From the NCBI GenBank assembly GCA_019187105.1, contig JABAQM010000001.1, positions 806,001 through 870,000 on the forward strand: a DNA stretch of 64,000 nt, written 5' to 3'. Within the stretch, counting starts at the first letter, position 1. Every line of letters starts with the position of its first letter. The translations under genes and the position numbers were made by a program. Origin of the DNA: Fimbriimonadaceae bacterium (lineage in GTDB: Bacteria; Armatimonadota; Fimbriimonadia; Fimbriimonadales; Fimbriimonadaceae). Below, piece by piece: positions 55,179-59,933 of this stretch. The notes under the pieces were generated by a model, which did not search any database, was not told the DNA's origin, and saw only the letters and a list, made by a program, of their open reading frames with translations.

Positions 55179-55227
55179 CGGCCACGATCGGACAGGTGGC
55201 CGGTGTGCGCAACTAGCCCAGCCGGGC

Positions 55228-55243
55228 GCCGATAGGCATTCCG
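55228..55243. repeat. Dispersed element GCCGATAGGCATTCCG, copy 1
   Basis: The 16 bases are identical to 59502-59517. Both copies are preceded by a CTAGCCC/CTAACCC-CGGG motif, so the shared element is about 35 bp. Confidence 0.7.
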
Positions 55244-55393
55244 CCCGAATGTCGGCCGTTCCGGGGATCCCCATTGCTTAGCGCGCAAGGCTGATTCTGG
55301 TCGAGACCGCGGCGGATCCGTTTCGGGCCGAGTGTCCTTCGGATGGCGTTTGCGCCGGAGCAAACCGCTCCTGGAGAACTATTTTCCGCGCCC

Positions 55394-55477
55394 GATCCAG
55401 AGCAGATGAGGCCTGATCCAGAGCAGACGAGGCCTGATCCAGAGCAGATGAGGCCTGATCCAGAGCAGATGAGGCCT
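55394..55477. repeat. 21-bp tandem repeat, four units
   Basis: Four consecutive copies of a 21-bp unit beginning GATCCAGAGCAGATGAGGCC; the second unit has one T-to-C change. A partial fifth unit follows. On the minus strand it reads as the heptad DQASSAL. Confidence 0.95.
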
Positions 55478-56005
55478 GATCTGCTTTAGAATTGCTGCGC
55501 AATAATGTTGCAGACACGTTCAAAAGCGGTACATACGTCTACAAAACGCCGCTTCGTGGCGTCGTCGGTGGGAGGAATGGAGCTCCCTGCGGTCGATCGA
55601 CCGGTGCTTCCAGGTCCTCGGCGACACCCCTGCTGCCTTTGCGGCGTGGCGAGGGGCGCAAGGAATGGTCGTATCTGGAGACCGGATCCCATTCACGATT
55701 CGGAACGTCACCGCACTCTGACAGTAGGAGGCGCTATTGTATGATGAAGGCGCGCTTCGCGCCCGGGTTAGCTGCGCGAACTCGGCGGCAACCAGCAGAT
55801 GAAGGAGGAATGGAGGAAAAAAGTTGTATTGGTCACGCGCCCCGCTCCACACGGGGCTCCTTGGGATCCACCTACAGAGGCAGAATCGCATCCATGGGTG
55901 CAACCCGAAAATCTACTGCAGGCCCGAGGAACCCGGGGGCCGCGGGACCAGAGATGTAGATTTGCCTAAACGAGATTCTGAAAAATACGTTAGCCCACCA
56001 GCACG

Positions 56006-56935
56006 ATGCTTCCTGGACTCCTTATTACATACTGCTTCATAAGCTCGCTTCCTTTGCCTAAGGAGACGGTCATCGTCGATTCAATGCAAGGGCGGCCGGT
56101 AGCAGTGGATATATTTGGTCACATGCGTGCCATCGTGAAGGCGCCGCTACCGGATCATCCAGGTGAAAGTGGGCCCAAAATGCTCGTTCGAGCGGTCGAT
56201 GGTCGGTGGTCCACGAAGAAGCCCATTGCTCCCGCGATAGTTGAGTACCATGCGAAAAACGAAGAAATGCAGTTTTGGCCCACGGTGTTCCAGTTTCCAC
56301 ATGGAGCTGTCTATGAAGGCATGCGATCGCTATTGTTGATGCGAGATGATGGCAAAGTCGAGGTGTACGATCGTAGTGGCTTCGAATGTACTATGGATCA
56401 ACCACGGGGGCGCATCATCCTGACGGAGGTTGGTGTCGTCGTAAAAGTGAACGTTTTAACGGTCTCGGCAGACGGTTTTCGCACAGAACGGTATGAGTTC
56501 GCCAATGGCGCGCAATTTCGGAGCGCTGGCGCGAGGACAGGACCCCTGGTTGTGGATCATCGGACGATGCTGGTTCTTCTTTCAAGGAAACCTCGCGCGA
56601 ACGAGGGAGTGTTGCCAGCCATTGTGCTTAACCATGGCGGTAGGAAGGAGGACAAACTAGACACTTGCATATGTGCTCTATTTGACATGAAGTCGGGGCG
56701 TGTTCAACCCTTGTTCTTGCTGACCATGCCTCACTTAACATTTGAGGAGAGTCTGCTGATGCCCCGGCGTTTAATGACCGTGTATGGCGACTCCCAGCTG
56801 AAGCTGGGAATCGCGTCAGACCGATTTTATGTGGTCAACCTCGATCGGTTGCAGAAACTATGGACCGCCGCACGGGCAAATAGGCTTTTGGGGGAGCGAC
56901 ATGCCCGTAACTCCAGCGGTTGTGAGCAGACGTAA
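56006..56935 (+). CDS. Hypothetical protein, AT-richer region
   Basis: 309 aa, no recognised family. Short beta-strand runs (VAVDIFGHMRAIVKAPL, GKVEVYDRSGFECTM, MLVLLSRKPRANEGVL) hint at a beta-propeller or sandwich. The N-terminus is hydrophobic (LPGLLITYCFISSLPLP) and may be a signal peptide. Base composition differs from the core genes. Start uncertain. Confidence 0.5.
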   Translation: MLPGLLITYCFISSLPLPKETVIVDSMQGRPVAVDIFGHMRAIVKAPLPDHPGESGPKMLVRAVDGRWSTKKPIAPAIVEYHAKNEEMQFWPTVFQFPHGAVYEGMRSLLLMRDDGKVEVYDRSGFECTMDQPRGRIILTEVGVVVKVNVLTVSADGFRTERYEFANGAQFRSAGARTGPLVVDHRTMLVLLSRKPRANEGVLPAIVLNHGGRKEDKLDTCICALFDMKSGRVQPLFLLTMPHLTFEESLLMPRRLMTVYGDSQLKLGIASDRFYVVNLDRLQKLWTAARANRLLGERHARNSSGCEQT

Positions 56936-57034
56936 CTCCATACTATTGATAAACATGAAAGACAAAAGTGACGTAGCTGGGAAAGAATTTGTTGATTGAG
57001 CTTCCAAAGCCCTGCCCGTTCAAGTAGCCAAAAA

Positions 57035-57724
57035 ATGAGTTCACTGTCGTTATTGTATCTTCTCTTGGTCATTGAGTTACTTTCTGTTCTCTTTGGGCAC
57101 CAGAGGAAGGTCGTACTAGTCGAAGACAGGCACTTACAAGTGCCGTTTAACGTGCGTGGGGGCGGACACTTTGCTATTGGAGGGATTGAGTACCTCAACG
57201 GCAGCTTAGTTCACTTTCCGAACTCTCTGTACTTCAGGTACGGACATAAGAGGAAAGCTATCAATTCAATGAAAAATCTAATTGGGAATGTGGAACTAAC
57301 GACCTCGAGTGAGGCCCTCGCTTTCGTACGGCTTAGGACTTCTCCGAAGACATTTGGATCTTTTGCCAATGGTGGTAGAGGATTGATTGAGCTCATTCCG
57401 CGTAGCCAGATAACCAAGGCTTTGGTTTATGGAGACGGAAAAATGGCTTCCTTGTTATGGAAGTGGCCGTCAGGTTGGTTTGGGGTTATTGACGATAAGG
57501 ACTTTGCACGATTCTGCGCCGCTAGGGCGACACACGAGGCACGTGGAAAAGTGTTCTTGGTTTCCAGAACCGTAATGTCCTATGATTTTGTCAAGGAGTC
57601 TGGTTTGGTCTTTAGGATTCAGGAGGTTGTTTACCCAGACGGCGAAATCTATATGTCCAAGTGCGTGCCAATTACGCTGCAGCCCGCCATTCTCCGTAAG
57701 TTGTATGTGCCAAAGTCTGAGTAG
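57035..57724 (+). CDS. Hypothetical membrane-anchored protein, AT-richer region
   Basis: 229 aa from ATG 57035. A single N-terminal hydrophobic helix (SLSLLYLLLVIELLSVLFG) is followed by a soluble domain with no recognised family (FNVRGGGHFAIGGIEYLNGS, FRIQEVVYPDGEIYMSK). A start further upstream at TTG 56996 is less likely. Same direction and composition as the preceding hypothetical gene. Confidence 0.5.
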   Translation: MSSLSLLYLLLVIELLSVLFGHQRKVVLVEDRHLQVPFNVRGGGHFAIGGIEYLNGSLVHFPNSLYFRYGHKRKAINSMKNLIGNVELTTSSEALAFVRLRTSPKTFGSFANGGRGLIELIPRSQITKALVYGDGKMASLLWKWPSGWFGVIDDKDFARFCAARATHEARGKVFLVSRTVMSYDFVKESGLVFRIQEVVYPDGEIYMSKCVPITLQPAILRKLYVPKSE

Positions 57725-57791
57725 TCATGGTGCCATCCTTATGGGAACCGCGTTCGGTTTGCCGCCTGTATTGTTAAGGACCGGACTCTTC

Positions 57792-57902
57792 TCACAACGC
57801 GTGACGTATACCTATGATGGCGATGGATTGAAGCGGAGCGAGAACGACGGTACGGCGATCACGACGCTGGTACGAGATGGAACGGACGTGATCCAGGAAC
57901 GC
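57792..57902 (+). pseudogene. RHS/YD-repeat relic
   Basis: The reading frame contains QRVTYTYDGDGLKRSEN followed by TTLVRDGTDVIQE, a clear RHS (YD) repeat. No upstream part of an RHS gene precedes it and it is cut directly by the REP-type repeat at 57904. The rest of the 57725-58216 gap holds that repeat pair and nothing else that I can name. Confidence 0.75.
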
Positions 57903-57903
57903 C

Positions 57904-58061
57904 CGGGTGGCATGCATCGAATCTATTGCATGCGAACTTTGCCACGCCCACCGATGCATGTTCTTGCGCTCTCCCGTACTGTTAAGTGGGGGCGCGGAAT
58001 CATCCACCGGTTGTTGGGGTACACCGATCGCGAGCAACGGTCGCCCGATGCATACCACCCG
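57904..58061. repeat. REPIN-like inverted pair
   Basis: CGGGTGGCATGCATCG (57904-57919) and its inverted partner CGATGCATACCACCCG (58046-58061, one mismatch) flank about 126 bp. The left arm recurs exactly at 59742-59757. Confidence 0.65.
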
Positions 58062-58216
58062 ATTTGAGACACAGGATGACAGGGGTTGCGGCCACCCGCC
58101 GTGACCAGCCAAGCAAATTCCTTTTGGCTGCCGGCTTAAGTAGGGGTTGCTGTATGATTAAGGGAGTGATTTCGCCTCTGCGGACACGGGCACGCCGGCA
58201 CTTACTGTAACAATCA

Positions 58217-58825
58217 ATGAGGCTAGTCGCTTTGATCGGTTCTATCGCCGCTTCCCTGCTCATTCTCGCGGTGGCTTCGTGTGGACCGGCGAATGCCATG
58301 AAGCCGGAAGAACTCATTGGGAAGAGCGTGTCGGCGGTTGTGAGGCCCGAAGAATGGCACAAATGGCGAGTGTCTGTTCGGGAGAGAAACGCGAGCAGGG
58401 CGATTCAAGAACTTGAAAGGTCGAAGGAACCATTGGCGGTAGGTTTTTACGGGGAGCCCGACTCTCGCGGTCGCCCTATTGTCGTCCTCGTGGTGTCCCG
58501 TGGACTCGTCGACTCTCTCTCGTTCGGAGAACCTCGACGGCTTTCCACTGATCAGGAGTTCCTCCTCATCCGAAAGAGTATCCGGGCGGGCACACGTGTA
58601 AGCGATATGCTAAAGACTTGCAACTGGTTTCCGCAGATCCACTGCGCTATAGGTCGGTCCGAATTGAGGCTCGACCGGGCGGTCCAAGGGTCGATAGTGG
58701 ATGGGAGCTTTTCGGGGCGGCTCTCAGCGGACGAAGAGGTTATTGGTGGCAGCGATGGCCAACTATTCATCGAATGCAGAAATGGTTCGATTGTTCATGC
58801 AACCGTCTCAAGGCCACCTTGGTGA
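58217..58825 (+). CDS. Hypothetical lipoprotein
   Basis: 202 aa with a lipoprotein signal (lipobox LAVASC, Cys 22). The mature part has no recognised family (MKPEELIGKSVSAVVRPEEW, GFYGEPDSRGRPIVVLVVSRGLVD). Two Cys near residues 135 and 143 (TCNWFPQIHC) could form a disulfide. Confidence 0.6.
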   Translation: MRLVALIGSIAASLLILAVASCGPANAMKPEELIGKSVSAVVRPEEWHKWRVSVRERNASRAIQELERSKEPLAVGFYGEPDSRGRPIVVLVVSRGLVDSLSFGEPRRLSTDQEFLLIRKSIRAGTRVSDMLKTCNWFPQIHCAIGRSELRLDRAVQGSIVDGSFSGRLSADEEVIGGSDGQLFIECRNGSIVHATVSRPPW

Positions 58826-58938
58826 AAATTTATCTTCCCGGAGGACCCAGTACCGGACGTCGGATTACGAATCTGCCACAAGCGGCAACGCTTCGCGAAC
58901 CGGGGTACCTAGGGTAGGGTGATGGAGGAAAAAGATCC

Positions 58939-59436
58939 ATGCTCAACCCAAAGCCCGGCCACCTGACCGGGGAACTCATGGTGATCTTCTCCCTCTTCGA
59001 CGGCTTTCTTCCTTTACCTGACGAGCCGGACGGTAATCCATGTGGGGACTCGGCAGGAAATCCGGAGGCGGGAAGGTACACCGCCTACTTTCAAGGCAGA
59101 CGAAGAGAAGATGTGAGCATGCCGGATGCCCTAACGATGCGTGCCGCCCTAAGTTTCTTTACGGCCAAGAGCTTCCGTTACTACTTTCCAGTCTTTGCCG
59201 CCTACGGCCTTTATGAAGCAGATATTCTGGAAGACCTTCTCAGGACCCTTCAAGGTGATTCTGGCGGGCTGTCGTGGAGGACCGATTACTGGGGTTCCCG
59301 CGAAATCATCGCAGCTCAACGCCTCCTGCGCTTCATCCATGACCGTGACTCCAAATTATCGCCGGATGGCTATTCGAAGGAAGCGTCAGAGTTGGTCGAT
59401 CGGTTTAAGGAAGCTCTTGCAGAGAGATCGAAATGA
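58939..59436 (+). CDS. Small hypothetical protein (DUF6714-like)
   Basis: 165 aa. GGAGG lies 10 nt before the ATG. The pattern SMPDALTMRAALSFFTAKSFRYYFPVFAAYGLYEAD resembles DUF6714-type proteins, in which a conserved YxxPAF-like segment follows a helical start. Function unknown. No signal peptide. Confidence 0.6.
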   Translation: MLNPKPGHLTGELMVIFSLFDGFLPLPDEPDGNPCGDSAGNPEAGRYTAYFQGRRREDVSMPDALTMRAALSFFTAKSFRYYFPVFAAYGLYEADILEDLLRTLQGDSGGLSWRTDYWGSREIIAAQRLLRFIHDRDSKLSPDGYSKEASELVDRFKEALAERSK

Positions 59437-59475
59437 AGCACGCCGATTCAGGGCTAGCTTGTAGCCGCGGGGTGG

Positions 59476-59517
59476 CCCGGGTTCGCGAAGCTAACCCGGG
59501 TGCCGATAGGCATTCCG
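59476..59517. repeat. Palindrome plus dispersed element, copy 2
   Basis: CCCGGGTT and AACCCGGG form an inverted pair (59476-59500), followed directly by GCCGATAGGCATTCCG (59502-59517), the same 16 bases as at 55228. The CCCGGGTTAGCT half also occurs at 55762. Confidence 0.65.
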
Positions 59518-59536
59518 GATTTCTTGCGATAGCCTG

Positions 59537-59677
59537 CTAACTCCAATCCGAATACAGCGTGATGAGACCGGTCGGATCCTCGACTTTGGCATAGGCGGTC
59601 GCGCTGGAATAGGGCCAGTCCGTTGCCTGTTCTCAGAGCCCCCGACGAACAGGGTTAGCATGGATGTAGCACGCGAA
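59537..59677 (-). pseudogene. REP-associated (Y1) transposase relic
   Basis: Minus-strand frame: CYIHANPVRRGL, then an in-frame TGA (59635-59633), then EQATDWPYSSATAYAKVED to a TAG. The strings YIHANPVRRGL and DWPYSSA are signatures of the C-terminal part of REP-associated tyrosine transposases. The catalytic HUH part is missing, so it is a fragment. Confidence 0.75.
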
Positions 59678-59741
59678 TTGTGAGCTCTTGGGCGTGCCCG
59701 GCGGGTGGCCGCGAGCTCGTTAGTCCTCCCTTCTCCAAGAT

Positions 59742-59803
59742 CGGGTGGCATGCATCGGGGAAGTTCCGCCTAACGGCAGGATAACCAAGTTCCCGATGCA
59801 TGT
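59742..59803. repeat. REP-type inverted repeat
   Basis: CGGGTGGCATGCATCG (59742-59757) pairs with TCCCGATGCATG (inverted partner) across about 35 bp. It lies about 65 bp from the transposase relic. The left arm is identical to that at 57904. The rest of 59437-59933 shows no gene. Confidence 0.65.
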
Positions 59804-59933
59804 TTCCGAGCCAGGAGCAAGAGTAAGCTCGCCGCATCAATCCGCGTTCGTTTGAGCATGAAGGACATGCCCCACGCGCGTTTCGGCCACGATTGACGCA
59901 ACTTCGGTGGACGCGCCATCCGTAACACAGGGC

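Follow-up and report, generated by a model that had tools for sequence, protein, structure and literature searches.

Probable remnants of two GTGG-headed REP families and of a RAYT gene in a Fimbriimonadaceae chromosome

Two families of repetitive extragenic palindromes (REPs), both headed by the tetranucleotide GTGG, are intermixed at one locus in the genome of a Fimbriimonadaceae bacterium of the phylum Armatimonadota (GenBank assembly GCA_019187105.1). The locus lies in a window of 64,000 nucleotides, C1:806001-870000 of the 3.31-Mb genome (99.55% complete), C1 being contig JABAQM010000001.1; positions without this prefix are those of the window. Very probably, it is a graveyard in which two REP families belonging to a RAYT (REP-associated tyrosine transposase, or TnpA-REP) system have decayed. 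By the features tested, the system is of the REPIN/RAYT kind, REPINs being inverted REP doublets. One family, type 2, has an intact RAYT; the other, type 1, probably has just a RAYT stub of 30 residues. An original prediction, made from the letters of the window, had recognized a REPIN/RAYT system at this site; the reading is supported, with two REP families instead of one.

Repeats and RAYT relic at the window locus

Type-1 REPs are long-loop hairpins of the form CGGGTGGC-ATGCATCG ... CGATGCATG. Type-2 REPs read GGGTGGC-CCGGGTT...AACCCGG-GTGCC..GGCA, with GTGG at the foot of the hairpin. The elements identified at the locus are the following.

55200-55243 (+), degenerate type-2 REP end, with the exact 16-mer GCCGATAGGCATTCCG at 55228-55243
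55734-55790 (-), type-2 REP, with GAGTTCGCGCAGCTAACCC at 55765-55783 and the RAYT 5' leader CATCATACAATAG at 55734-55746
57904-58061, type-1 REPIN, made by a left REP at 57905-57962 (+) and a decayed right REP at 57999-58060 (-)
58084-58100 (-), outer arm GGCGGGTGGCCGCAACC of this REPIN
59470-59520 (+), type-2 REP, 3' flank of the RAYT relic, with GTGG head, CCCGGGTT/AACCCGGG stem and second hairpin GTGCCGATAGGCA
59540-59668 (-), RAYT relic of 43 C-terminal residues with one stop among them, 74% identity to the same part of the intact RAYT
59700-59716 (+), outer arm GGCGGGTGGCCGCGAGC belonging to a half type-1 element and located 31 bases past the broken 5' side of the relic
59743-59804 (+), single type-1 REP hairpin of the half element (59700-59804), 55.2 bits

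The relic is the end of a type-2 RAYT unit, and is followed by a type-2 REP. A decayed RAYT beside the repeats had been predicted; the relic is real, but belongs to the type-2 family, and the half type-1 element next to it (with CGGGTGGCATGCATCG at 59742) has the wrong orientation for its 5' flank. The type-2 end at 55734-55790 is arranged as in intact RAYT units, and its decayed hairpin folds no better than shuffles (z 0.21). It faces the end at 55200-55243 across a tandem repeat; in the latter, bases upstream of GCCGATAGGCATTCCG have only a loose likeness, judged by eye, to GGGTTCGCGCAGCTAACCC. The REPIN at 57904-58061 has its heads outward and an outer span of 156 bp, and is devoid of the left outer arm, at the junction with an RHS fragment. 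Folded as single-stranded DNA, the hairpin at 59742-59806 is far better than shuffles (z -4.39), the type-2 REP at 59470-59520 moderately better (z -2.39); two intact copies residing elsewhere in the genome gave z values of -1.17 and -1.29.

The two arms that had called attention to the locus were placed correctly, CGGGTGGCATGCATCG at 57904 and 59742 (+, exact) and at 58046 (-, 15 of 16 bases), GCCGATAGGCATTCCG at 55228 and 59502 (both exact). Within the window alone, at 3 mismatches, both are unremarkable: CGGGTGGCATGCATCG occurs 4 times (1.23 expected, a count reached in 8/100 shuffles), GCCGATAGGCATTCCG 3 times (0.95 expected, reached in 6/100). Genome-wide counts, for which the same pattern read backwards served as control, set the two apart. 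The first arm has 13 exact matches, and 28 at up to 2 mismatches vs 3 for the reversed pattern. The second has 2 exact matches, rising to 5 when up to 2 mismatches are allowed (control 1); as a dispersed repeat it is therefore ruled out, being only the tail of the longer type-2 REP. The repeats are not confined to this locus, since 23 type-1 hairpins, 13 independent type-2 hairpins and two intact RAYT copies are found in the genome. Assignment of all elements to one repeat family is ruled out, because the two types are unlike in stem, loop, outer arm and flanking RAYT.

Type-2 REPs and the intact RAYT

The search for an intact RAYT, which had been suggested along with the prediction, identified a gene free of stops at C1:3302408-3302956 and an identical copy at C1:3304205-3304753. 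The protein passes the NF047646 model (93.5 bits, cut-off 80), and its best match in the PDB is the E. coli TnpA-REP (4er8, E 1e-7). No other full-length RAYT of this clade was found in the genome. Both flanks of the gene carry GGGTGGC-CCGGGTTCGCGCAGCTAACCCGG-GTGCCGnAGGCAnTCC in inverted orientation, a 47-base inverted match located 19 and 18 bases from the aligned gene. From one base inside the left head up to the right outer arm, the two RAYT units are identical in 712/713 bases; the flanks beyond differ. The contig ends (C1:1-127 and C1:3304726-3304852) overlap by 127 bp inside the second unit. Thus the chromosome seems circular, the record resembling an untrimmed circle with the second RAYT unit at the join.

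Type-2 hairpins were found at 14 places at up to 2 mismatches, one of which is a duplicate due to the contig-end overlap, so that 13 are independent; at up to 3 mismatches the hairpins are 19 (control 2). Five solitary copies, including the one at window 55734, retain the RAYT leader CATCATACAATAG (up to 2 mismatches) and look like ends of vanished RAYT units. One further match to CATCATACAATAG is unrelated.

Type-1 REPs, their pairing and a RAYT stub

Type-1 hairpins, which correspond to CATGCATCG-N(31-39)-CGATGCATG preceded by GGGTGG, number 23 in the genome, as counted with a covariance model built on 20 copies. The same model found none in 60 related genomes, all of other genera, where up to 89 candidates per genome were scored under strict filters. 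Exact matches to the type-1 hairpin in named genomes were 0, in a search from which records of the genome under study may be excluded. The pairing geometry, a further point raised by the prediction, is that of REPINs: 8/9 neighbour pairs less than 200 bp apart are inverted with heads outward, and span 156-190 bp, the remaining one being direct. The outer arm GGCGGGTGGCCGCnACC (up to 1 mismatch) was found in 12 copies, all sitting just outside a type-1 REP.

Head and stem arms are 91-93% identical in pairwise comparisons, loops 29% (figures from all 25 parsed hairpins). Covariation was measured on a reduced set: three of these hairpins were then discarded, namely a mis-parse, the opposite strand of a counted copy and a doubtful one, and the remaining 22 were brought to 20. 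The two positions that open the loop remain complementary to the two that end it, in 18/20 and 15/20 sequences, and show exchanges of G-C/C-G and U-A/G-C/A-U pairs. The covariation score (0.158) was reached by 0/500 shuffles and by no slid version, the percentage paired by 0/500 shuffles. Since pairing of the loop-closing positions is conserved, the type-1 stem measures 11 bp, and encloses a fast-drifting loop of 27-35 nt. At the foot of the hairpin, the last G of GTGG is able to form a G-T pair. A conserved stem with a drifting loop would be expected under selection for a folded substrate with a head tag, whether DNA or RNA.

Four type-1 REPINs lie inside 2.6 kb at C1:773104-775667, three of them with near-identical loops, apparently a local amplification. 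At C1:2595600 the head of a type-1 REP directly follows the tail of a type-2 REP (GGTGCCGCAGGCATTCCGAC), forming a hybrid junction of both families.

A RAYT stub is found at C1:389219-389130 (-). It comprises 30 residues, 57% identical to the N-terminus of the RAYT of a relative (locus L095), and begins 43 bp inside a type-1 REP, oriented as a RAYT flank. Its E value (4e-5) is the match of one query in a 201-kb search made with 42 queries, and the stub is therefore a lead, not a proof. It is the best evidence that type 1 once had a RAYT of its own. The type-1 population is probably orphaned and drifting, its RAYT being now a stub.

A head shared by related RAYTs

RAYT homologs were found in 47/101 genomes (E 0.001), and in 32/291 genomes of the phylum of the window (E 1e-20). 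Five named loci reside in Planctomycetota (one Phycisphaerae, one Gemmataceae, three Sedimentisphaerales), and encode proteins 37-47% identical. Flanks of Planctomycetota and same-phylum RAYTs carry inverted hairpins of unrelated sequence, which feature the same or a similar head. Within 400 bp of the gene, an inward GGGTG[G/C]C was found on at least one side in 41/51 related loci, and on both sides in 31/51.

The motif was noticed in loci L089-L114, and later data are L127-L146 and L147-L155 only; L127-L146 were picked by hand from the homolog match list, mostly from genomes already represented. Loci were split at 35% identity, a value set after the discovery loci had been seen. The discovery set (27 loci, at least 35% identity) has 70 heads inward and 12 outward, vs 5.7 in dinucleotide shuffles; heads occur on either side in 23 loci, on both in 17. 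The 15 later loci have 47 inward and 5 outward heads (2.9 in dinucleotide shuffles), on either side in 14, on both in 11. Among 13 distant RAYTs, heads are 4 inward and 4 outward (2.0 in shuffles), with 3 loci marked on either side and 1 on both. Several loci missing GGGTG[G/C]C carry flanking inverted repeats headed by the shorter core GTG[G/C]C, an observation made post hoc and uncounted.

Stems starting within 2 bases from the foot were detected at 68/117 inward heads, 8/16 outward heads and 141/1375 random C sites of the same flanks; the stem finder fails on the other 49 inward heads, some of which are outer heads. In a tree of 52 RAYTs (3 of 55 rows, under 110 residues, were left out) RAYTs with an inward head on one side or both group together, since this label requires 7 changes vs 11.0 in shuffles, with 2/500 as low. 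The motif WQxGxGYDRN, found in 31/42 clade sequences, in 0/13 distant ones and in 3/9 further loci, aligns with the guide-contact region W94 to R104 of the E. coli TnpA-REP.

Long loops like those of type 1, about 25-45 nt, recur in some relatives, and in some a second head lies 27-52 nt further out. Two REPs that bear the same tag are dispersed, in three other genomes. The REP of one related RAYT has 23 and 17 copies in two related genomes of one genus, and 0 in three others (controls 0). Another REP has 96 matches in one Phycisphaerae genome (up to 3 mismatches, controls 0), and none in two other Planctomycetota genomes; of the 44 pairs of neighbours less than 100 bp apart in the former, 36 are REPIN-like, with heads outward at 53 or 54 bp, and account for 72/96 places.

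Other inverted hairpins, such as TGCCTC...GAGGCTA, apparently with a different tag, flank more distant same-phylum RAYTs (loci L117, L119, L121).

Proposed mechanism and alternative explanations

RAYT, a Y1 HUH nuclease, may recognize the GTGG head and the stem in single-stranded DNA, and would cut and rejoin DNA at head-tagged REPs. By such cutting and rejoining REPINs would spread, and RAYT units would occasionally duplicate. At the window locus, elements would have landed in or beside the RHS fragment and the RAYT gene, and then decayed. Tentatively, a clade present in the phylum of the window and in Planctomycetota may read a re-coded guide, GTG[G/C] plus a stem starting with C, in which replacement of G by C at position 4 would have the natural effect that guide mutants have in vitro, a shift of the cleavage dinucleotide.

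Several observations weigh against a REPIN/RAYT graveyard. The repeats are few for an active REPIN population, the near-identical copies at 773-776 kb have the look of a local duplication, and type 2 is not seen as REPINs without RAYT. Neither the whole window REPIN (z -0.80) nor its left hairpin (z -1.35), for which another fold is favoured, outdoes shuffles in folding. Two of five covariation measures are not above shuffles (pairs changed on both sides, 499/500; further pair types, 451/500), because the signal is confined to 2 of the 11 pairs. In 9 new loci, for which the motif was fixed beforehand, the excess of heads is weaker (7 inward, 2 outward, 1.5 expected in mononucleotide shuffles), with heads on either side in 4/9 and on both in 3/9.

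Since both families have the GGGTGGC head, the intact type-2 RAYT might move type-1 REPINs in trans, and the stub at 389 kb might be a chance neighbour. The identical 7-base head and the similar outer arms of the two types fit this arrangement, as does the status of the intact RAYT as sole full-length clade member found in the genome. Yet type-1 and type-2 stems and loop sizes are wholly different, published RAYTs are each paired with their own REP family in the parts of PMC6006769 considered, and the stub is found on the inner side of a type-1 REP, as far away as a flanking REP would be. Mobilization in trans is thus rather unlikely, though the strongest of the alternatives.

Spread of the copies solely via recombination and segmental duplication of RHS-rich accessory DNA would account for the near-identical copies at 773-776 kb, and for the RHS/YD-like fragments which, partly by eye, abut REPs at the window and several other places. 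Just 3/14 REP clusters, however, have an RHS_repeat locus 10 kb away or less (0.79 expected), and about 20 flank bases beyond the outer arms look unlike, by eye, between most copies; this explanation is improbable. The hairpins might also be retained as RNA elements, either terminators or mRNA stabilizers, rather than as transposase substrates. Compensatory stem changes suit RNA as well as single-stranded DNA, but the type-1 layout is paired, symmetric and heads-outward, and unrelated hairpins beside RAYT genes of another phylum bear the same head, which leaves a role in RNA alone with little probability. Least credible of all is their identification as miniature inverted-repeat transposable elements of an ordinary DDE insertion sequence, which nested inverted arms and a length of about 240-260 bp would suit, as most related loci have a Y1 HUH RAYT gene placed between these heads (neither target-site duplications nor DDE transposases were looked for).

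Relation to known systems

The REPIN/RAYT graveyard thus preferred shares with published systems (Nunvar 2010, PMC2817692; Bertels and Rainey 2011, PMC3116915), in the portions of these papers compared, a RAYT placed between two inverted REPs, GTGG at the foot of the palindrome, inverted REP doublets (here in type 1 only) and a conserved stem with compensatory changes. An intact Y1 HUH RAYT gene and dispersed REPs are also shared, the latter here in low numbers (23 type-1, 13 type-2). Differences are the longer shared head GGGTGGC, the second outer head, the low copy number, the relatives with a GTGC head, outside GT(A/G)G, and the loops of 27-35 nt in an 11-bp stem, where published loops, as far as described in the texts compared, mostly measure 2-5 nt, and some are larger.

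HUH and Y motifs are shared with the TnpA-REP subclasses of Quentin et al. (2018, PMC6006769). In Table 1 of that paper, the motif set found here (NHVH, WQxGxGYDRN, YIHxNP) fits no row cleanly; the nearest is subclass 2.6 (NH[LIV]H, WQ, YIH[QN]NP), the REPs of which are given there without GT[AG]G. The same source reports enrichment in GTGG for sequences that it places on the edge of subclass 2.2. The GTAG- and CGTC-tagged superfamilies (Di Nocera 2013, PMC3733652) are likewise stem-loops tagged at one end, often dimers; the tag here is GTG[G/C]C, the comparison being with the text of that paper and not with its Figure 1. The text lists Rhodopirellula baltica and O. terrae (most GTAG-20 elements having GTGG). 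A CGTC-tagged REP is ruled out, the tag being GTGG.

The Y1 HUH domain (PF01797) is shared with IS200/IS605 insertion sequences, which have hairpin ends with a guide tetranucleotide. A difference is that the intact RAYT fails the transpos_IS200 model (23.4 bits, cut-off 55).

According to PMC6006769 and PMC8266576, TnpA-REP has as its guide the GTAG or GTGG at the hairpin foot, and in vitro a change of this guide shifts the dinucleotide that is cleaved. GTGG heads have already been published, as the texts of PMC2817692, PMC3686654, PMC3733652 and PMC6006769 indicate. What marks the present system as a variant is a longer head common to two phyla, the occurrence of GTGC, long loops and the motif WQxGxGYDRN. 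These were not found in the literature searched; the figures of PMC3733652 and all supplements fell outside the search, so that an earlier sighting, for example in Rhodopirellula baltica, is possible. Searches for GGGTGGC with repeat and transposase retrieved nothing on REPs, by title; of the papers listed for REPIN/RAYT and Armatimonad-, the four that hold both kinds of word are likewise, by title, not on REPs.

The studies of REP recognition compared here, in the parts considered, concern GTAG systems of Gammaproteobacteria. In this RAYT clade the tag is largely kept, hairpins are wholly different between genomes, and GTGC occurs in some relatives; the guide-sequence model of RAYT cleavage is therefore testable with natural pairs. 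Coexistence in one genome of a REP family with a seemingly dead transposase and of a family with an intact one bears on the decay of REPIN populations.

RHS fragments and other features of the locus

Further features of the locus are listed below. The G+C content of the repeat region is lower than that of the window (0.547 vs 0.590), as is that of the first three open reading frames (ORFs).

55390-55481, 21-bp tandem repeat, 4.4 copies of GCCTGATCCAGAGCAGATGAG with 95% matches, flanked by decayed type-2 ends on both sides
56006-56935, ORF of 309 aa, no Pfam/NCBIfam match
56996-57724, ORF of 242 aa, no Pfam/NCBIfam match
57783-57902 (+), RHS/YD-repeat fragment
58217-58825, ORF of 202 aa, no Pfam/NCBIfam match
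58939-59436, ORF, sub-threshold DUF6714 match only

An RHS fragment cut where the repeat begins had been part of the prediction. Similarity does stop at 57902, and the type-1 arm starts at 57904, but on family models the fragment alone is sub-threshold (YD_repeat_2x, 14.5 bits, cut-off 15.8). Two further fragments in the genome resemble it, with 45-50% identity. An intact RHS copy with the window junction was not found among the three matches, the other two being short open frames. RHS_repeat matches in the genome are 66 at E 0.05, in open frames up to 2377 aa. REP clusters lie within 5, 10 and 20 kb of RHS_repeat loci in 2, 3 and 4 of 14 cases, respectively (P 0.07, 0.04 and 0.05; type-2 places with 3 mismatches were omitted). 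The RHS connection thus holds at direct junctions, but beyond these only a weak excess is seen, and support for RHS genes as preferred REP neighbours is weak.

RHS/YD fragments adjoin type-1 or type-2 REPs, by alignment, at C1:2426530-2426660 and C1:3303047-3303170, and adjoin REPs, by eye, from C1:3301529 on and at about 116-250 from the contig start.

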